Origin: Myxococcales bacterium
GTDB taxonomy: Bacteria > Myxococcota_A > Polyangia > Polyangiales > Houyiibacteriaceae
Reading direction: 5' to 3'
DNA length: 64,000 nucleotides
Assembly (NCBI GenBank): GCA_024640845.1
Contig: JAHEEE010000013.1
Span: 1 to 64,000 of the forward strand
The notes under the pieces are model-generated. The model saw only the letters and a program-made list of their open reading frames with translations, searched no databases and was not told the DNA's origin. Positions 13,394-23,027 of this stretch are shown piece by piece (the first letter of the stretch is position 1; every line of letters begins with the position of its first letter). The translations under genes and the position numbers were made by a program.

Positions 13394-14386
13394 ATGCCTT
13401 CGGTCTCATGGAAGCTTCGGCTGTTGTGTTGCGTGCTGGCGATCGTCGGTGGGGGCTCCCTCGTCGGCGCCTCCGAAGTCGGCCCGCAACCACGCCACGG
13501 CGCGTTCGCGTCGATCCGAGCGGCCCGAAACGTCATCCACGAGCCGGTTCATGCCGAGCCCGGTCCACAGCTTCTCGAGCAGGTGGCGATGGTCGGGCAA
13601 CCCGATGTGACCGGCGCTCGGTTCCCGAGCGGACTGACGATCCAGGGCGGCACCCGCCGGAGGATGATCCTGTTCACATTCGATGATGGTCCCTCGAAGC
13701 GTACGACCCCGCATCTGCTGGACGTGCTCGATGAGCTCGGCATCAAGGCCCTGTTCTTCCTGACGAGTGAGAGCTTCGGCAATGGCAATCCTTGGGAGCG
13801 AGAGCACGCTGAGATCGTTCGCGACATCGTCCGCCGCGGGCACATGGTGGGCAACCATACCGAGACCCATCGGCAGCTTCCGCTTCTGAACAACGCGGAG
13901 ATCGAGGCCGAGCTTGCACGGAGCGGTCGGAAGATCGCGTGGGCGGCTGGAAGCTATCCTCGGCTCATCCGGCCCCCCGGGGGGGCGATGTCGAAGCGCG
14001 TGGAGTGGATTCTGGCGGAAAACGGGTACACCAGCGTGATGTGGGCCGTCTACCCGGCGGACCTCGAAGAGCAGACTCCCGAAGGCGTGGTCCGCACGTT
14101 CTTCCGCGTGTTGGATCGTCGAGAGCAGGACACGGGCGACCGTGGGGGCATCATCCTCATGCACGACACGAAGCCCCTGAGCCTCCGGGCCTTGCCCCGC
14201 ATCGTCGATGCGCTCGAGCGCCGCAACTGCACGCTGCTCGCGAGAGGCGAAGAACTCTACGATATCGTGGGCGACCTCGGCTACTTCATCCCAGGCTATG
14301 AGCTCGATGAATCCCTGGAGGACCGCCAGGCCGCCCTACGTGAGGACACCGCGAAGCGATGCGGTTCCGTGGCTCTCGTCGATTAG
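13394..14386 (+). CDS. polysaccharide deacetylase family protein (NodB domain), exported
   Basis: A 330-residue carbohydrate esterase family 4 enzyme that would remove acetyl groups from an N-acetylated polysaccharide (peptidoglycan or an extracellular polymer). An N-terminal signal peptide is visible (cut near VGA-SEV). The NodB domain spans about residues 90-290. It has motif 1 TFDDGPS (catalytic and metal Asp), motif 2 GNHTETH (metal histidines), motif 3 RPPGG and a late LMHD motif (motif 5 histidine). The metal triad Asp-His-His is therefore intact and the enzyme should be active. The last 40 residues beyond the fold show no motif. It ends with a 4-base convergent overlap with trmB. The substrate cannot be deduced. 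Confidence 0.88.
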   Translation: MPSVSWKLRLLCCVLAIVGGGSLVGASEVGPQPRHGAFASIRAARNVIHEPVHAEPGPQLLEQVAMVGQPDVTGARFPSGLTIQGGTRRRMILFTFDDGPSKRTTPHLLDVLDELGIKALFFLTSESFGNGNPWEREHAEIVRDIVRRGHMVGNHTETHRQLPLLNNAEIEAELARSGRKIAWAAGSYPRLIRPPGGAMSKRVEWILAENGYTSVMWAVYPADLEEQTPEGVVRTFFRVLDRREQDTGDRGGIILMHDTKPLSLRALPRIVDALERRNCTLLARGEELYDIVGDLGYFIPGYELDESLEDRQAALREDTAKRCGSVALVD

Positions 14387-15000
14387 CGCCTCGTCGCGAC
14401 GATGCGCCAAACCGGGAGCCCGTCCTCGATGGCTCGCTTCTCCCGATTCGAGCGGGCGCCGAAGGGGTTCTCGTCGATGTAGCCTCGTCCGGCGGCGAGC
14501 GCGAAGCCAGCCCTCTCCTGGAGCTGCGCAACGTATTGCGCCGCGCGATGTTCCACATCGGTTTGGATGAAAAGCTCCCCGCCCGGCTTCATCAACCTCT
14601 CGAGCTCGGTCAACAGCGCGTCGCCGATGACCCGCCGCTTGTCATGGCGCTTCTTCCACCACGGGTCCGGAAAGTGAAGCGAAACCCGGCGAACCGATCC
14701 GCTTGGTTCGGCTCTTTTCAAGATTTCTCGCGCATCCCCACACAAAATCGCCACATTTCGGAGATCGTGCTTTTGCAAACGCTGGTCGGCCTTGTAGGCG
14801 AGCTTGGTCTTCACCTCGATGCCGATGATGCGGCTATCGGGCACCTGGGCCGCCCGCTCAAACAGCGATAAACCGCGGCCAAAACCGATGTCGAGCTCGA
14901 TTGGACCGCTGCCCTCGAGCAAGGTCTCGAGCGAAAAGCGCCCCTCTGGCGCCCTCGGAGCATGCTCGCGGTAGAGCCGTCTTAGGTCCGAATCCGACAC
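14383..15000 (-). CDS. trmB: tRNA (guanine-N7-)-methyltransferase
   Basis: Cytosolic S-adenosylmethionine enzyme that makes m7G46 in tRNA variable loops. The 205-residue protein has the Rossmann SAM motif LDIGFGRG near residue 37, the acidic IIGIEVKTK strand end, the hallmark LHFPDPWWKKRHDKRR segment (substrate binding) and the C-terminal GARSNREKRAIEDGLPVWR segment that defines TrmB. Length is normal for the family. The start is GTG 15000 with a GGGAG ribosome site 6 bases upstream. Convergent with the deacetylase gene, overlapping it by four bases. Confidence 0.95.
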   Translation of the reverse strand: MSDSDLRRLYREHAPRAPEGRFSLETLLEGSGPIELDIGFGRGLSLFERAAQVPDSRIIGIEVKTKLAYKADQRLQKHDLRNVAILCGDAREILKRAEPSGSVRRVSLHFPDPWWKKRHDKRRVIGDALLTELERLMKPGGELFIQTDVEHRAAQYVAQLQERAGFALAAGRGYIDENPFGARSNREKRAIEDGLPVWRIVATRR

Positions 15001-15113
15001 CAGCGCTCCCTACCGGCGCGGTCGGAACCGGTCAAACCGGGCTCGCGGCTTCTTGACCGGGAAGGTATCGATCGCGTATGCCAACCAGCATACATCCAGG
15101 TGAACGGGGCTTG

Positions 15114-15923
15114 ATGTCGATGAGGATTTTGATCGTCGAAGACAGCGTGACCATGCGCAAGGTCATGGAGATGACTTTTGCGGGCGAGGACGCTGAGCTG
15201 CTCACCGTCGAAAGCGGCGAGCTTGCACTTCAACAGGGACGTGACTTCGGTCCGGACGTGGCCTTCGTGGACGCGTCGTTGCCCGGGCTCGATGGGTACG
15301 AGGTGACTCGGCGGATTAAGGCCGACCCCCAACTCGGCGGCACATCGGTGATCCTCATGGCGAGCCAGCATCGGCCGCTCGACCAGGCGCGCGCGTCCGA
15401 GGTCGGCGCCGATGATCACATCCTGAAGCCGTTCGATACACAGGAAGCCATCGACAAGGCGACCCAGTTGGCCGGCCAGGCTGAGGCCCTCTACGAGGCG
15501 CCGTCGATTCCGGTGGCGCGCCCCGCGACGACGCCGCCTCGTCCGGTTTCGCAACCTTCCTACCGTCCGACACCACCGCCATTGCCGATGAGCGGTCGTT
15601 CGTCGCGGCCCATGGCCCCGACACCCCGGACAGGCCCGCCGCTCAGGGCGAGCTCGGCGGTCGCGTCGTCCTTGCCGCCCTCTGCGCCGGTCGCGCGTCC
15701 GATTTCGTCGGCGCCCGTGCCCGCGCACACCTCAGCGGCCATGGGCGACGCGATCTCGCATTCCGTCGTCGAGCGTCTCGAGACGCTGGGGCTCACCCCC
15801 GAACAAGTCGAAGGGGTCCTCAAGCTCTCTGCTGAGGTCGTCGAGCGTGTCGTGTGGGAGGTCGTTCCGGAGCTCGCCGAAGCGATGATCCGCGAGGAAT
15901 TACACCGCCTCGTCGGTGACTGA
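15114..15923 (+). CDS. response regulator with Pro-rich linker and PopZ-like C-terminal helix
   Basis: A 269-residue protein. The N-terminal receiver domain (about 1-120) has the acidic pocket in ILIVEDS, the phospho-acceptor Asp in VAFVDASLPGLDGYE, a Thr/Ser position in VILMAS and the conserved Lys in HILKPFD. A long low-complexity linker rich in Pro, Ser, Arg and Ala follows (about 130-215). The C-terminal 45 residues form predicted helices, with the segment VVWEVVPELAEAMIREEL resembling the W-x-x-x-x-P-x-x-x-x-x-x-x-x-E-E pattern of the PopZ/DUF2497 assembly helix. No DNA-binding or enzymatic output domain is present. ATG 15114 or 15120 begins right at the receiver fold; another start at 15078 is possible. 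An adaptor or polar-localisation role is inference. Confidence 0.8.
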   Translation: MSMRILIVEDSVTMRKVMEMTFAGEDAELLTVESGELALQQGRDFGPDVAFVDASLPGLDGYEVTRRIKADPQLGGTSVILMASQHRPLDQARASEVGADDHILKPFDTQEAIDKATQLAGQAEALYEAPSIPVARPATTPPRPVSQPSYRPTPPPLPMSGRSSRPMAPTPRTGPPLRASSAVASSLPPSAPVARPISSAPVPAHTSAAMGDAISHSVVERLETLGLTPEQVEGVLKLSAEVVERVVWEVVPELAEAMIREELHRLVGD

Positions 15924-15964: not shown

Positions 15965-18748
15965 ATGAGCGCACGATCCGACGAGATGCCAAAGCAGTAC
16001 TCGCCGACCGAAGCGGAATCACGCTGGTACGAGTTCTGGGAGAAGTCAGGGTTCTTCGCAGCGTCTGAAGATCCGGAAGACCGGCGGCCGACCTATACGC
16101 TGGCAATTCCGCCCCCCAACGTCACCGGGTCTCTCCACATGGGGCACGCATGCCGAACGACCTTCGAGGACGTGCTGTGCCGCCACAAGCGAATGCAAGG
16201 CTACAACACGCTTTGGGTTCCCGGAATCGACCATGCGGGGATTGCGACGCAGGTCGTCGTCGAGCGGCAGCTCAAGAAAGAGGGGCTGACCCGCCACGAC
16301 CTCGGCCGCGAGAAGTTCATCGAGCGGGTGTGGCAGTGGAAGGAGGAGTCGGGCGGCAGGATCCTCCAGCAGCTTCGAAAGATGGGCGCCTCGTGTGACT
16401 GGACCCGAACCAAGTTCACGATGGACCCAGACATGGTTCGCGCGGTCCGCGAAGCGTTCGTGCGACTCTACGAGGAAGGTCTGATCTATCGTGACACGCG
16501 CTTGGTCAACTGGGACGTCGAGTCGCAGACCGTGTTGTCGGACCTCGAGGTCGAGCAGGAAGAAAACGTCGAAGGCGCGATGTTCGACTTCGCCTACCCG
16601 CTAGCTGACGGCAACGGCGAAGTCGTGGTGTCGACCACGCGCCCGGAAACGATGCTCGGCGATACCGCGGTTGCGATCCATCCCGACGACGCGCGCTATC
16701 GCCACCTGCACGGCAAGTACGTTCGACATCCCTTCGTGGACCGGTTGATTCCGATCATCCTCGATGCCGAGCTAGTCGACCCGGAGTTCGGTACGGGGGT
16801 CGTGAAAGTGACGCCAGCGCATGATCCGAACGACTTCGCGACGGGCAAGCGCCACGGCCTGGAAGAGATCAACATCCTGAATCTCGATGGCACCCTCAAC
16901 GCCAATGCTGGGCCCTTCCAAGGGCTCGACCGATTCGAGGGTCGCAAGGCCGTCGAGATCGAGCTCGGCAATCGCGGGCTCGCGCGCGGCGCAAAGAAGC
17001 ACATGATGACCCTGCCGCGTTCGCAGCGGTCGGGAACTATCGTCGAGCCGATGATCTCGACGCAATGGTTCGCGAAGATGGCCCCCCTCGCCGCGCCTGC
17101 GATCAAAGCGGTCGAGGACGGCACGATTCAGGTGCTGCCGCCCGAGTGGACGAAGACCTACTTTCATTGGCTCCGAAACATCCAAGACTGGTGCATCTCG
17201 CGCCAACTCTGGTGGGGGCATCCGATTCCCGCCTGGTACTGCGATGACTGCGATCACGTGACGGTTTCCCGTGAGGATGCAAGCGTCTGCGAGGGCTGCG
17301 GCGGCGCCTCGATTCGGCAAGATGAAGACGTGCTCGATACTTGGTTCAGCTCCGGGCTGTGGCCGTTTTCGACCCTTGGTTGGCCGGACAAGACCATCGC
17401 GCTCGAGCGCTTCTACCCGACACAGGACATGGAGACCGGGTATGACATCCTATTCTTCTGGGTCGCGCGGATGATCATGATGGGCCTTCACTTCATGGGT
17501 GAGGTGCCCTTCACTCGGGTGTTGCTCGCGGGGCTCGTGACGGACGAGCGGGGCGAGAAGATGAGCAAGGTGAAGGGCAATGTCGTCGATCCGTTAGACG
17601 TCATCTACGGGGCGACCGGAGAGGAGCTCCTGGCGAAGGCCGAAAAGGCAGGCGCGAAGAAGTCCGGCCTCAAATACCTGAAGTCGACCTACCCGGACGG
17701 GTTCGTTGCGTACGGGGCAGACGCACTGCGTATGACGCTACTCAGCTACTCACCGCAGTCGCGCCGCATTGCGCTTTCGATCAAACGCATCGAGGGGTAT
17801 CGGAACTTCGCCAACAAGCTCTGGAACGCGTCCCGCTACGCGCTGATGCGGCTCGAGGGTTCGGCTACGCGGGCCTCCCAGCAGTGTCCGCAGCCGAAGG
17901 CACTCGCCAACCGGTGGGCCTTGTCGCGGCTCTATCACGCGCTCGACGTCGCCTCGACGGGGATCGACGCGTACCGCCTCGATGAGGCGTCCGGCGCGCT
18001 CTACCACTTCGTGTGGGACGAGTTCTGCGATTGGTACCTGGAGGTCAGCAAGCCCGCACTCGACAGCGGGGACGCAGCGTTGGTCGCGGAGACCGAGGCG
18101 ACGCTGGCACATGTTCTCGAGACCGTGCTCCGCGCGCTCCATCCAATGATGCCTCACATCACAGAGGAGATCTGGCAGCGCATTCCCAAGTGGGACGGCG
18201 CCGCAAAGAGCATCATGATCAGCCGCTTTCCCTCGGCCCTCGTAGACGCGAGAATCGACAGGATCGCTCAGCGCGACTTCGAAGTGGTCCAGGCCTTCGT
18301 CGGGAGCATACGAACGATCCGCGCCGAGCACGATGTCCCGAAAAGCCATCCGATGCCGGTCCACTGGCACACCAGCGACGAAGACAAGCGCTCCGTCTTG
18401 GATGCCGAAAGGTTCACCATCGAAACGCTCGCTCGGTGCCAGATGCGTTTCGAAGCGGACGCGAGCAAGCTCGACGACCCGGGCGCGCACTTCGAGAACG
18501 CGGCGGTCTTCCTCAATCCGGGCGTCCGTGCAGCGGTGCCGGGGGTGATCGATGCAGGCAAAGAGAGGGATCGCTTGCAGCGCGATCTGAAGAAGCTGGA
18601 AAAGGAGCTTGGCGCCGTCGAGAAGAAGCTCGGCAACCCGAGCTTCGTCGACCGGGCCCCCGAGGCCGTGGTAGAAAAGTCGAAACGGGACGCATCACGA
18701 CTACGAGAGAAGCGCGACCGCCTCGAGGCCGCGCTGCGTAGTCTATGA
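15965..18748 (+). CDS. valS: valyl-tRNA synthetase
   Basis: Class I aminoacyl-tRNA synthetase charging tRNA-Val, 927 residues, normal for the family. The HIGH signature appears as HMGH at 58-61 within PPPNVTGSLHMGH, and the KMSKS loop as KMSK at 532-535 followed by Val. The CP1 editing domain lies between them (TTRPETMLGDTAVAIHP). The anticodon-binding domain carries the LWNASRYALM segment, and the C-terminal 70 residues form the coiled-coil arm that clamps the tRNA elbow, rich in Lys, Glu and Leu. Either ATG 15965 or ATG 15986 could be the start; neither has a strong ribosome site. The next gene begins 7 bases after its stop, so the two are probably co-transcribed. Confidence 0.97.
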   Translation: MSARSDEMPKQYSPTEAESRWYEFWEKSGFFAASEDPEDRRPTYTLAIPPPNVTGSLHMGHACRTTFEDVLCRHKRMQGYNTLWVPGIDHAGIATQVVVERQLKKEGLTRHDLGREKFIERVWQWKEESGGRILQQLRKMGASCDWTRTKFTMDPDMVRAVREAFVRLYEEGLIYRDTRLVNWDVESQTVLSDLEVEQEENVEGAMFDFAYPLADGNGEVVVSTTRPETMLGDTAVAIHPDDARYRHLHGKYVRHPFVDRLIPIILDAELVDPEFGTGVVKVTPAHDPNDFATGKRHGLEEINILNLDGTLNANAGPFQGLDRFEGRKAVEIELGNRGLARGAKKHMMTLPRSQRSGTIVEPMISTQWFAKMAPLAAPAIKAVEDGTIQVLPPEWTKTYFHWLRNIQDWCISRQLWWGHPIPAWYCDDCDHVTVSREDASVCEGCGGASIRQDEDVLDTWFSSGLWPFSTLGWPDKTIALERFYPTQDMETGYDILFFWVARMIMMGLHFMGEVPFTRVLLAGLVTDERGEKMSKVKGNVVDPLDVIYGATGEELLAKAEKAGAKKSGLKYLKSTYPDGFVAYGADALRMTLLSYSPQSRRIALSIKRIEGYRNFANKLWNASRYALMRLEGSATRASQQCPQPKALANRWALSRLYHALDVASTGIDAYRLDEASGALYHFVWDEFCDWYLEVSKPALDSGDAALVAETEATLAHVLETVLRALHPMMPHITEEIWQRIPKWDGAAKSIMISRFPSALVDARIDRIAQRDFEVVQAFVGSIRTIRAEHDVPKSHPMPVHWHTSDEDKRSVLDAERFTIETLARCQMRFEADASKLDDPGAHFENAAVFLNPGVRAAVPGVIDAGKERDRLQRDLKKLEKELGAVEKKLGNPSFVDRAPEAVVEKSKRDASRLREKRDRLEAALRSL

Positions 18749-18755
18749 GGAAACC

Positions 18756-20213
18756 TTGAGCACACCTCGTACAGAGCCGACGCCGCCAACGCCAAAGCCG
18801 CTCTGTGTCGACCTGGACGGCACGCTCGTCGCGACCGACGTCACCCTCGAGGGGTTGATCGCGTTTCTCAAAGCAGCGCCGTGGAAATTGTTCTCCTTGT
18901 TGGCGGCCCTGATGAGCGGTCGACCCGCGCTCAAGCGATACCTCGCCCACCACGTCACTATCGATGCATCGACGTTGCCATATCGGCCCCGCGTGCTCGG
19001 GGAAATGCGTCGGGCGCGCGCGGACGGTCGGCAGGTCTTGCTGATCACCGCGTCCGATCAGAGCGTTGCGGACGCGGTTGGGGCGCATGTCGACCTGATC
19101 GACGAGGCGATCGGGACGCACAGCGAGATCAACCTCAAGGGCCGCCACAAGGCCGAATATCTGTTGTCGCGATTTGGCGCAAAAGGCTTCCAGTATCTCG
19201 GAGACTCGTCCGCGGACCTCCCCGTCTGGGACGCGGCCGGAGAGGCCGTCATGGTCGCGCCGAGCGCACGTACGCAGCGGCGGGCGGAGCGGTCCGTGCC
19301 GAACGCCAGGGTCCTGGTGGAGCGGCCCAACAAGGCGAGAGCAGCGATCAAGGAGCTTCGGCCTCACCAATGGGCGAAGAACGTCCTGCTGTTCGTTCCG
19401 CTTTACTTTGCACATCAGTACACGAATCTCGATCTGGTCTTTCGCGCGCTGATGGCTTTCTTCTCGTTTAGCTTCGCCGCGTCCTCGATTTACGTTCTCA
19501 ACGACTTGGTCGACCTGCCTGCCGATAGGCTGCATCGGAGCAAACGCAATCGTCCGCTCGCGGCCGGCACCATATCCATCGCGAACGGAGTGGTGCTCTC
19601 AGCTGCCGCGCTGATCGTTTCGATCGTGCTCGCGATCCTCTTCGTGAGCCCCCGATTCATCTGGGTCGTGCTGGGGTACGTCGCCCTCACCACGGCGTAT
19701 TCGTTCTTTCTCAAGCAAAAGATGATCATCGACGTGCTTACGCTCGCGTCGTTGTTCACGTATCGCGTGATGGCTGGCGGCGTCGCCGTCAGCGTACCCC
19801 TCTCCGAGTGGCTGCTCGCGTTTTCGATCTTCTTCTTTACCAGCCTCGCGTTCGTGAAGCGTTACTCCGAATTGATTCAGGCCAAGGCAGACGGCCGCAT
19901 GTCGATCAAAGGGCGCAACTACGTGCCCGCGGACATGCCGATCATCGTGGCCGCCGGGCTCTCTTCGGGCTTGCTCGCGGTCTTGGTCTTCGCCCTCTAC
20001 ATCAACACCCCCGCGATCACCGGGTACTATCCGAGGTCCCAAGTGTTGTGGGGTATCTGTCTGGTCTTGGTCTACTGGATCATGCGAATCTGGTTCCTGG
20101 CTGCTCGTGACAAGATGCACGACGACCCGGTGCTGTTCGCGGTAAAGGACCGGATTAGCCTTTTTGCGGGGGTGCTCGTGGTCGCGTGCCTGTTCGCCGC
20201 CCGCTACACCTAA
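18756..20213 (+). CDS. HAD phosphatase-like domain fused to UbiA family prenyltransferase
   Basis: A 485-residue two-domain membrane protein. Residues 15-190 form a HAD-like domain with motif I VDLDGTLVATD (Asp19, Asp21), a TASD motif II and the GDSSADLPVW motif IV. Residues 200-485 are a polytopic UbiA-type domain with about nine helices, the Asp-rich NDLVDLPADRLHRSKRNRPL motif and a second, weaker site near SFFLKQKMIIDVL. UbiA enzymes join a polyprenyl diphosphate to an acceptor. The closest well-known group with this look is decaprenyl-phosphate phosphoribosyltransferase, which may be accompanied by HAD domains, but the acceptor here is unknown. TTG 18756 is used, with TGAGG about 5 bases upstream overlapping the valS stop. 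It ends one base before the convergent methyltransferase gene. Confidence 0.85.
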   Translation: MSTPRTEPTPPTPKPLCVDLDGTLVATDVTLEGLIAFLKAAPWKLFSLLAALMSGRPALKRYLAHHVTIDASTLPYRPRVLGEMRRARADGRQVLLITASDQSVADAVGAHVDLIDEAIGTHSEINLKGRHKAEYLLSRFGAKGFQYLGDSSADLPVWDAAGEAVMVAPSARTQRRAERSVPNARVLVERPNKARAAIKELRPHQWAKNVLLFVPLYFAHQYTNLDLVFRALMAFFSFSFAASSIYVLNDLVDLPADRLHRSKRNRPLAAGTISIANGVVLSAAALIVSIVLAILFVSPRFIWVVLGYVALTTAYSFFLKQKMIIDVLTLASLFTYRVMAGGVAVSVPLSEWLLAFSIFFFTSLAFVKRYSELIQAKADGRMSIKGRNYVPADMPIIVAAGLSSGLLAVLVFALYINTPAITGYYPRSQVLWGICLVLVYWIMRIWFLAARDKMHDDPVLFAVKDRISLFAGVLVVACLFAARYT

Positions 20214-20214
20214 C

Positions 20215-20763
20215 TCAGAACAGCTCCATCTGACCCGGTTGGAGGACGCCTTCGTGGAGGCGGATCCCCTCGAGCTCGAGCAGGGCCTGTTTTCGGGCGA
20301 TACCTCCCCCGTATCCGCCGAGGTGGTGTCCCGCCTCGACGACTCGATGGCAGGGGACGATAATCGGCACGGGGTTGACGTGGTTCGCCTGCCCGACCGC
20401 GCGCATTGCGCGGGGTGACTGGATCTCTTGCGCGATGCCGCCGTAGGTGCGGACCTGGCCCCATGGAATGGCACGAAGTGCTGTCCAGACGCGAAGCTGG
20501 AACTCCGTGCCGCGGAGATCGAGCGGCACCTCGCCGAAGTCCTCCGGCTCTCCGTCGAAATAGCGCGAGAGCGGCTCTGCGTAGACCGTCGGAACGGGCG
20601 CCTCGTCCGCGAGGATGTCCTCGAGGCGATCGAAGGAGATCCGCAGGACCCCGCGGTTGCTCCAAGCGAGCCAGAGCGTCCCGAGCCGCCGCGCCTCGAA
20701 GGTTCCCCACCCCGTCGCCGGTTCCAGGTGCGTCGAGTCCCCGGTGCCGCCTTCCGTCGTCAT
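20215..20763 (-). CDS. ogt: methylated-DNA--protein-cysteine S-methyltransferase
   Basis: Suicide DNA-repair protein that takes the methyl group from O6-methylguanine. The 182-residue product has an N-terminal ribonuclease-H-like half and the conserved C-terminal half. The latter shows GTEFQLRVWTALRAIPWG, the arginine-finger helix RAMRAVGQANHVNP, and the active site VPCHRVV with acceptor Cys138, followed by LGGYGGG. Length and motifs match stand-alone Ogt/AGT rather than the two-domain Ada regulator, because no AraC domain is present. It is divergent from the alpha-glucosidase gene and convergent with the UbiA fusion gene one base away. Dimeric zinc or alkyl-damage regulation cannot be judged. 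Confidence 0.93.
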   Translation of the reverse strand: MTTEGGTGDSTHLEPATGWGTFEARRLGTLWLAWSNRGVLRISFDRLEDILADEAPVPTVYAEPLSRYFDGEPEDFGEVPLDLRGTEFQLRVWTALRAIPWGQVRTYGGIAQEIQSPRAMRAVGQANHVNPVPIIVPCHRVVEAGHHLGGYGGGIARKQALLELEGIRLHEGVLQPGQMELF

Positions 20764-20975: not shown

Positions 20976-23027
20976 ATGATCACGTCCCAGCAGGATCCCG
21001 GGCTTCTCGGTGACCGAGTGGCCCGCTTCATCCCCCCCGACGTCGACCCGGCCTCCCTCCCCCGCTCCTTCGCGCTCGTCGAGCCCCTTCCCCCCCTTGG
21101 ACCAGTTCCCGATTCGTGGCGAGTCGTGCCTATCTACACGCGGGAAACACGCGGTCACCTTGCCACCATCCGGCTCGACCCCGACACGAGCCTCTATGGC
21201 ACCGGCGAAGTCGCCGGCCCGCTCCTTCGCAATGGCTTCGTCACCGAGGTCTGGGCGACACAGCCGTTTCGAATCGAGGCCGATGGTACGCCGGTTTCGA
21301 ACTACGATGAACGCTCGAAGAGCCTCTATCAAGCGCATCCGTGGGTTCTCGCGGTGCGGGCGGATGGGAGCGCGTTTGGCGTCCTAGCCGACACGACGTA
21401 CCGGCTCGAGATCGACTTGCGCGAGGACGTGCGTCTCCGCTCCGCGGAGCCGTTCCCAATCATCGTCATCGAAGGTGATTCGCCGCAGGAAGTCGTCGAG
21501 CGACTGTCAACGCTCACCGGTCGGATGGAACTGCCGCCGCGTTGGGCCCTCGGTTATCAGCAGTGCCGCTTCTCGTATTATCCGGACAGTCGTGTCCGCG
21601 AGCTCGCCGATGAGTTCCGAGCACGCCAGATTCCCTGCGACGTCATCTGGGTCGATATTCACTACATGGACGAATACAAAGTGTTCACCTTCGATCCCGA
21701 GGGTTTCCCCGATCCGAGTGGCACGAACGCGTATCTTCATGAACGCGGTTTCAAGACCGTGTGGATCCTCGACCCTGCTGTGAAGGTCGAAGACGGCTAC
21801 GGGGTTTACGAGGAAGGTGTCAAAGGAGAACACTTCCTTCGGGACGCCAGCGGCCGGGAGCACCACGAATGGACCTGGCCCGGCGACGCTGCGTTTCCCG
21901 ACTACACGCGGCCCGAGACGCGTGCCTGGTGGACCCGGCTGACGAAAGCTTTTCTAGAGCACGGGATGGACGGGGTATGGGTCGACCTCAACGAGCCGTC
22001 CCCGATCTTGCCGCATGGAGCCGAGCTTCCCGAGGACCTCCGCCATGCGGGCGGCGGAGAGATCGCCCCTGGATCCCACGCCCAATACCATAATATTTAC
22101 GGGATGTTGATGTCGAAAGCTACACTGGATGCGATGCGAGAAGCCCGCCCTTCGCGCCGCCCGTTCGTTCTCACGCGTTCCACCTACCTGGGTGGTCAGC
22201 GATATGCGGCGACGTGGACCGGGGACAATGTCGCGGATTGGAACCATCTGCATTGGTCCGTGCCGATGGTGCTCAATTTGGGGCTCTCGGGGCAGCCGAA
22301 CAGCGGCCCTGACATCGGTGGCTTTGCCGGTACCCCGACCCCGGAGTTGTTCGCGCGTTGGATCGGCGTCGGGGCACTGCTGCCCTTCTGCCGAACCCAC
22401 AATGCCCTCAAAGGCGATCAAGAACCATGGTCGTTCGGCGCTGAGGTCGAGGAGATCGCAAGGGTCGCGATCGCGCGGCGCTATCGATTGCTCCCCTACC
22501 TCTACACCGTCTTCTGGGAGGCGGCGAAGACGGGTCTTCCAGTCGCGCGACCCCTCTTTTTTGCGGATCCTGCGGATCCCGCGCTTCGCGACGAGGACCA
22601 CGCGTTTATGCTCGGAGGCGACCTCATGGTGCAGCCCGCGCTCGAGGAGCGAGCGGAGCACCCGTTCCCGATGCCGAAGGGTCAGTGGCGCGCATTCACG
22701 TTCGAGGGGCAAGCCGCAAGCGGCAACCGGGCGCTCCCTGTCCTCCGGCTCCGTCCGGGCGCGATTCTGCCCGTCGGTTCAGGCGGTCAGACTACCGAGG
22801 AAGCAGCTGAGGGTCCGCTGACTTTGTTCGTGTCGCTGGACGAGAATGGAAAGGCCGAAGGCCAGCTCTACGAAGACGACGGCGACGGTTTCGGATATGC
22901 CGCCGGGGACTACTTGCTGACCACGTACCAAGCGATCATGCGCAATGGCGAAGTCGAGGTTCGAGTCGAGCGGCGGCATGGTAGCCGTGCCGCGACGCCA
23001 CGTGAGACTCGAATTCGAGTGCTGTAG
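20976..23027 (+). CDS. glycoside hydrolase family 31 alpha-glucosidase
   Basis: Retaining alpha-glycosidase of family GH31, 683 residues, likely releasing glucose from alpha-glucosides such as maltooligosaccharides. It has the N-terminal beta-sandwich, then the (beta/alpha)8 barrel. The catalytic nucleophile is Asp337 in the GVWVDLNEPS signature and the acid/base is Asp417 in ATWTGDNVADW. Other family marks are the PPRWALGYQQCRFSYY barrel entry, a GFPDP loop and FCRTHNA before the C-terminal beta domains. There is no signal peptide, so it is predicted cytosolic. It lies beside the sucrose genes, converging with susA 9 bases away, which suggests but does not prove a shared role in storage-sugar turnover. 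Alpha-xylosidase activity is a less likely alternative. Confidence 0.92.
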   Translation: MITSQQDPGLLGDRVARFIPPDVDPASLPRSFALVEPLPPLGPVPDSWRVVPIYTRETRGHLATIRLDPDTSLYGTGEVAGPLLRNGFVTEVWATQPFRIEADGTPVSNYDERSKSLYQAHPWVLAVRADGSAFGVLADTTYRLEIDLREDVRLRSAEPFPIIVIEGDSPQEVVERLSTLTGRMELPPRWALGYQQCRFSYYPDSRVRELADEFRARQIPCDVIWVDIHYMDEYKVFTFDPEGFPDPSGTNAYLHERGFKTVWILDPAVKVEDGYGVYEEGVKGEHFLRDASGREHHEWTWPGDAAFPDYTRPETRAWWTRLTKAFLEHGMDGVWVDLNEPSPILPHGAELPEDLRHAGGGEIAPGSHAQYHNIYGMLMSKATLDAMREARPSRRPFVLTRSTYLGGQRYAATWTGDNVADWNHLHWSVPMVLNLGLSGQPNSGPDIGGFAGTPTPELFARWIGVGALLPFCRTHNALKGDQEPWSFGAEVEEIARVAIARRYRLLPYLYTVFWEAAKTGLPVARPLFFADPADPALRDEDHAFMLGGDLMVQPALEERAEHPFPMPKGQWRAFTFEGQAASGNRALPVLRLRPGAILPVGSGGQTTEEAAEGPLTLFVSLDENGKAEGQLYEDDGDGFGYAAGDYLLTTYQAIMRNGEVEVRVERRHGSRAATPRETRIRVL

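Follow-up and report, generated by a model that had tools for sequence, protein, structure and literature searches.

What does a receiver domain do in a protein that has no output domain and ends in a long helix? The question is raised by a gene in the window, the stretch of 64,000 nucleotides of a Myxococcales contig that is analysed here. The first-pass annotation described its product as a response regulator whose last helix resembles the W...P...E...REE pattern of the oligomerisation motif of PopZ (DUF2497), and proposed that it could link phosphorylation to the assembly of pole or motility complexes. The best explanation overall, with a probability of roughly 0.8, is that the protein is a RomR hub and that its assembly helix and the PopZ helix are most likely homologues.

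Gene and protein architecture

The gene, a romR orthologue, occupies 15114..15923 on the plus strand and was identified by its open reading frame, a search with Archangium RomR, and alignment. Translation from the ATG at 15114 gives 269 amino acids and places the phosphorylatable aspartate at D53, the number that PMC3441718 gives for M. xanthus RomR. Alternative starts are the ATG at 15120, which yields the 267-residue protein P0001, and the ATG at 15078 (281 residues). Residue numbers below are those of P0001, which runs from MRILIVEDS to REELHRLVGD on the plus strand, with its stop at 15923, and whose translation ends in ...SAEVVERVVWEVVPELAEAMIREELHRLVGD*.

The protein begins with a receiver domain (15126..15455, plus strand, residues 3-112), identified by Pfam family PF00072 (E 9.8e-20), by fold, and by an alignment in which E7, D8, D51, and K103 are all present. 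PF00072 is the sole Pfam family over the cut-off, and the Pfam search found no output domain in P0001. The receiver is followed by a linker rich in Pro, Ser, and Ala (15489..15725, plus strand, approximately residues 124-202), which is predicted to be disordered from its sequence and from model confidence.

An AlphaFold2 model of P0001, computed with 14 relatives, is confident over the receiver (10-residue pLDDT means of 95-98), poor over residues 131-200 of the linker (41-61), and moderately good in the tail from residue 211 onward (77-87). Two tail helices are predicted. The initial part of the first (15726..15785, plus strand, residues 203-222) is of low confidence, with a mean of 48 for residues 201-210. 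The second, the RomR-C assembly helix (15798..15917, plus strand, residues 227-266), is 40 residues long and is delimited by the model together with tail conservation. It contains the VVWEVVPELAEAMIREEL motif (15849..15902, plus strand, residues 244-261), which lies inside the segment 15780-15923 singled out by the first-pass annotation. In the window's own order 15 tails agree without exception at 17 positions, and W, P, and one E never vary among 27 tails of its phylum, so the conservation of the tail is beyond chance. The domain order reported earlier (receiver, then Pro/Ser/Ala linker), the missing output domain, and the reality of the last helix are thus all borne out.

Structure comparison with Foldseek is uninformative about the tail because the 50 best matches shown for the model are receiver-domain proteins. 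A sequence search of the PDB with the tail returned five weak matches, chiefly designed helical proteins.

Downstream of romR, after 41 bp, lies valS (15965..18748, plus strand), the gene for valyl-tRNA synthetase, recognised by its PPPNVTGSLHMGHA motif. Upstream is a divergent open reading frame (14383..15000, minus strand) whose product looks trmB-like from its sequence. Beyond valS, judging by eye, 18756-20213 (plus strand) presumably encodes HAD and UbiA-like prenyltransferase functions, 20215-20763 (minus strand) an MGMT-like alkyltransferase, and 20976-23027 (plus strand) a GH31-like glucosidase.

Identity as RomR

The reference for RomR consists of loci from Archangium and Myxococcaceae, tied to M. 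xanthus through residue numbers given in PMC12719032. The record of the Archangium locus (L145) carries no annotation; its product was identified as RomR from a receiver, a Pro-rich linker, and a tail whose D, E, K, W, and E are spaced as D371, E390, K391, W394, and E402 of M. xanthus (relative to the Trp: D-23, E-4, K-3, and E+8). The window tail has E-4, R-3, and E+8. Its E242-R243-x-x-W246-x7-E254 therefore repeats the spacing of E390-K391-x-x-W394-x7-E402, with Arg replacing Lys. The accessible text of PMC3441718 defines RomR-C as helical, Glu-enriched, and bearing an invariant Trp and Pro, which in the window protein are W246 and P250.

When the Archangium protein is used as query, the window protein is the best match in its whole genome (2.4e-29; runner-up 5.7e-16). 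The two are 58% identical in the tail and 28% identical over the whole gapped alignment. A valS neighbour is common to the window, Archangium, and Myxococcaceae romR genes, and a profile of 15 tails finds a single RomR-C-type tail in the window organism's own draft genome. A separate receiver paralogue that had acquired a RomR-C-like tail would explain the modest overall identity and the short linker, but the single tail copy in the draft genome, the rank of the window protein in the Archangium search, and the common valS neighbour make this very improbable. The gene is almost certainly a RomR orthologue. RomR is the closest known family of the window protein, which is an ordinary member of it.

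The partners of RomR are encoded in the same genome. There mglB adjoins mglA (MglB against 6hjm, 1.2e-63; MglA against 5ymx, 1.9e-102), the product of mglC matches M. xanthus MglC (7ct3) at 1e-21, and three genes score above the cut-off for the pilT family. MglC is found in 53 of the 57 genomes searched, the organism's own included. Some match to P0001 at E<=1e-5 occurs in 57 of 57 genomes of the relatives search (own included), a count that includes matches to receivers; full-length matches come from several genomes of the same genus.

The tail is more widely distributed. With the profile of 15 tails, 144 of the 282 genomes searched in the window's phylum yield one at E<=0.01. In named genomes, a search with a 27-row tail alignment gave a best 80 loci that include Myxococcota and Myxococcales (one Archangium, two Myxococcaceae), Desulfuromonadales and Geobacter, Nitrospirae, unspecified Deltaproteobacteria and Proteobacteria, one Halobacteriovoraceae, and one Spirochaeta, among others. 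In four loci (L119, L124, L070, and L077) the EKVAWE-type helix unit of the RomR-C-type tail appears, by eye, to be tandemly repeated.

Expected polar assembly and the proposed role of phosphorylation

In M. xanthus, according to the available portions of PMC10329633 and PMC12719032, RomR-C trimerises, binds MglC, and helps in pole targeting. The latter source, as far as its accessible text goes, reports that RomR 371-420 and the MglC dimer associate in a 3:2 ratio with a KD of 2.6 nM, and that W394A abolishes binding. By orthology, the window helix is expected to bind MglC through W246, and oligomerisation and pole targeting are likewise inferred for the window organism.

The protein would then be the receiver-linker-helix hub of a polarity module formed with MglA, MglB, and MglC. 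Its C-terminal helix most likely oligomerises RomR (a trimer in M. xanthus) and most likely docks via W246 onto the MglC dimer, by which RomR would join MglB at the cell pole. Linker and receiver would point outward and recruit further partners, so that MglA-GTP may be fed to type IV pili. The earlier suggestion of a role in pole or motility-complex assembly holds to the extent that the helix matches RomR-C, an assembly helix that works at the pole and within motility complexes; the protein had not been named as RomR.

The other half of that suggestion, that phosphorylation of the receiver controls assembly driven by the tail, is unsupported. The acidic pocket, D51 (D53 from the 15114 start), and K103 are what such a switch would need to draw on, and they are present. 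Against it, the position that usually holds the switch Thr or Ser is, by eye, Ala81 in the window protein, and M. xanthus RomR-C oligomerises by itself and gives a weak polar signal in the accessible part of PMC10329633. The excerpts available of PMC6428892 report work in which FrzE does not phosphorylate M. xanthus RomR, and describe D55 as having lost its key role in RomR of B. bacteriovorus. Because the same excerpts describe the M. xanthus receiver site as dispensable for reversals, a phosphorylation-gated switch is not the default reading here, and it is unlikely.

Similarity to PopZ at the profile level

P0001 by itself has no PF10691 hit up to E 10, and its own genome has no PF10691 match. 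Because of the missing hit, the window protein is not a member of the PopZ family. The short N-terminal client-binding helix H1 of PopZ is also lacking, the N-terminus being the receiver. The resemblance to PopZ noted in the first-pass annotation therefore fails as membership of PF10691/DUF2497, but it survives at the level of profiles and of gene order.

In a profile-profile alignment (hhalign), 43 RomR-C tails chosen without PopZ match three PopZ sequences with a probability of 85 (85.2) and a score of 29.8. The best scores among controls were 16.4 for 300 column-permuted PopZ alignments, 13.2 for 211 valS windows, and 10.5 for reversed PopZ. The 15 tails of the window's own order give a probability of 84.7 against PopZ. 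The aligned core is short (21-26 columns), the spacing from Trp to Pro is 4 in RomR and 6 in PopZ, and the PopZ alignment holds three sequences, two of them nearly identical, with four loci fetched among six plasmid records.

Among Pfam families, PF10691 also collects more of the 43 tails than any other (13, with a best E of 0.0073; the next family collects 3). All 10 tails whose bit scores were listed, 7 of them with a PF10691 row, fall under the PF10691 cut-off of 27 bits. A count of 22 in 53 tails was set aside since 10 of the 53 had been found with PF10691, which left the 43 used here. When the tails are reversed, PF10691 is not among the 25 of 39 families listed, so it is matched by at most 1 of 53; DUF5871 is picked repeatedly (13 of 53), so Pfam hit counts alone prove little.

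Linkage to valS

A position upstream of valS, as romR has in the window, is typical of popZ, without being a defining feature of its family. The available portions of PMC5686542 and PMC6414705 place popZ close to valS in A. tumefaciens, C. crescentus, and M. gryphiswaldense. Among four loci from the plasmid collection, popZ is upstream of valS in three (L166, L167, and L168) and not in the fourth (L165, Sphingomonas). In the window the romR stop at 15923 precedes the valS start at 15965.

For wider counts, a gene was called valS-linked if a PPPNVTG-type motif followed its stop on the same strand within 0.9 kb (Nitrospirota) or 1 kb (other sets), an intervening small gene being possible. Among the best 80 named loci, 46 RomR-type genes have valS within 1 kb downstream. 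Of 50 unnamed loci, 42 yielded a tail and 8 did not; the same linkage holds for 27 of the 42.

Linkage can also be approached from the PopZ side, by searching genomes blindly with PF10691 and asking where the matches lie. No match reached the PF10691 cut-off in the 282 genomes searched for the window's phylum, the 198 for Nitrospirota, or the 247 for a third phylum, that of Desulfuromusa kysingii (L134). This third phylum we take to be Desulfobacterota. Among the matches below the cut-off, 21 of 66 in Nitrospirota (19 genes; all 66 examined) are upstream of valS on the same strand, with 136-662 bp from stop to valS motif. In the phylum of Desulfuromusa, 16 of 81 (16 genes; all 81 examined) are valS-linked, including 7 of the 10 best, at distances of 155-776 bp. 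The number expected by chance is estimated at well under one, since each genome holds one such gene among a few thousand. These counts overstate independence because the linked genes within a phylum are relatives: all 35 fall into 9 BLAST clusters at E<1e-10 and 2 at E<1e-3. In the window's own phylum, same-strand valS was found in 0 of 30 fetched matches, which look like chance, and two of the listed PF10691 matches lie in romR-type genes, judged by eye from coordinates.

The linked Nitrospirota genes look by eye like receiver, linker, and RomR-C in 18 of 19 cases; the remaining stretch (L220) starts inside the linker. Two other families turned up among weak matches. One, in Nitrospirota (L169, L205, L207, L211, L224, L236, and L241), combines a receiver with an internal LPELIRKEL-type helix and additional C-terminal sequence, matches PF10691 weakly, and has no valS in the fetched stretch. 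The other, from a single genus of the window's phylum (L174, L175, L181, L182, and L184), is a receiver-linker-helix family with a tail of the VKPQLQNWVDSRVDALVKKMMQQ type, a weak match to the PopZ model, and no same-strand valS in the fetched stretch.

Bridging proteins

The 16 linked genes from the phylum of Desulfuromusa include 13 without a receiver (8 by Pfam, 5 by eye). Two others are intermediate. L325 has a receiver by Pfam. L348 (1417-3093, minus strand) has a receiver too decayed for Pfam (no hit at E 0.01), a RomR-like tail, and valS downstream; it clusters by BLAST with receiver-bearing proteins and carries an acidic DEEIIELVDVIEE motif. An acidic motif of the [DE][IV][IL][DE]L type is common to L325, L348, and 12 of the 14 other linked genes. 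That set of 14 retains L266, which is valS-linked and whose contig ends within the gene. L277 belongs to the same family by eye and was counted as unlinked, the valS motif being absent from its fetched stretch.

To control for the fact that the matches had been picked with the PopZ model, all 81 PF10691 matches were scored with a RomR-C model made independently of PopZ. The 14 linked genes, to which L325 and L348 do not belong, have a median of 13.0 bits and the 65 unlinked ones a median of 0.8 (Mann-Whitney p 2.6e-8, a value made too small by the kinship of linked genes). Exceptions are the linked L271, which scores low (4.5 bits), and the unlinked L277, L310, and L322, which score above some linked ones. 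In hhalign the 14 linked tails match RomR-C with a probability of 95 and a score of 44 over 45 columns; the controls reach 18.4 (permuted maximum), 21.7 (reversed, probability 20), and 16.9 (valS windows).

These valS-linked proteins of two kinds, receiver-less and PopZ-like in the phylum of Desulfuromusa, receiver-bearing and RomR-like in Nitrospirota, bridge the PopZ and RomR families. Six of the receiver-less proteins encoded upstream of valS (L267, L274, L285, L286, L289, and L307) are acidic and of the EDDEIIDLTDLLEEG...LPGIVEKVIREEIEKLKK type; they are candidate polar organisers.

Common descent or convergence

A single ancient polar hub, with its gene upstream of valS in at least four phyla, is the probable ancestor of PopZ of Alphaproteobacteria and RomR of Myxococcota. 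Three lines of evidence lead to this reading: similarity between profiles, gene order at valS, and the blind PF10691 searches with their intermediates. The conserved heart of the ancestral hub would be the C-terminal oligomerising helix, while the N-terminal client module (receiver, acidic motif, or short helix) and the disordered linker may have been swapped or lost by lineage. In the genes observed from Myxococcota, Nitrospirota, and Desulfuromonadales the proposed client domain is a receiver; at least 13 genes from the phylum of Desulfuromusa have none, and alphaproteobacterial PopZ has a short helix in its place.

The window gene could instead be a RomR orthologue whose tail came to resemble PopZ by convergence, both being amphipathic oligomerisation helices that contain Pro, are rich in Glu, and follow a disordered linker, with the linkage to valS coincidental. 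The short aligned core and sub-threshold HMM scores are compatible with this, as are the weakly scoring helices of L169, L205, and L207, which lack valS in the fetched stretch, and the repeated choice of one family, DUF5871, by reversed tails. Convergence does not, however, account easily for the presence of valS next to 16 of the 81 and 21 of the 66 matches from the blind searches, for the separation of linked from unlinked PopZ matches by the RomR-C model, or for the acidic motif that the intermediates L325 and L348 have in common; it is rather unlikely. Confidence in common descent is nevertheless kept at the level of a fair probability because PF10691 scores stay under the cut-off, the search in the window's own phylum failed, the linked genes are kin, and the PopZ alignment is thin.

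In its accessible text, PMC3441718 describes RomR-C as not homologous to characterised domains. No statement relating RomR to PopZ was found in the passages of openly accessible, published papers that the search covered. The locus is of interest because two well-studied hubs of the cell pole probably have a deep connection, with unnamed bridging proteins that are open to testing. If RomR and PopZ form one family, the rules of PopZ condensates (linker length, helix valency) become relevant to RomR. If the common descent is true, the acidic proteins encoded upstream of valS in the phylum of Desulfuromusa would also be polar organisers.

Comparison with known systems

RomR (M. xanthus MXAN_4461 and homologues) is like the window protein in its receiver, its Pro-rich disordered linker, and its C-terminus, which is helical, rich in Glu, and has a conserved Trp and a conserved Pro. 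It also co-occurs with MglA, MglB, and MglC and has the same valS neighbour at the Archangium locus. The window protein differs in length (267-269 amino acids against 420 in M. xanthus), in the sequence of the linker, which is not conserved, and in the Arg at the position of M. xanthus K391.

PopZ (DUF2497, PF10691; Alphaproteobacteria) has a comparable plan: an N-terminal client-binding part, a Pro-containing and acidic disordered middle, and oligomerising C-terminal helices, which the available portions of PMC9926476 describe as modelled in trimers and hexamers. Its core, P-x-[LIM]-[AV]-E-x-x-[IV]...E-[IL]-x-R, is similar, and its gene is often upstream of valS. It differs in having a short N-terminal helix in place of the receiver and helices H2-H4, and in the PF10691 match that the window protein lacks.

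The receiver-less proteins encoded upstream of valS differ from the window RomR in the absence of a receiver (by Pfam for L267, L274, and L286; by eye for the others) and in an acidic EDDEIIDLTD-type N-terminus. They share with it the valS neighbour and a tail, found with the PopZ model, that can be aligned to both RomR-C and PopZ.
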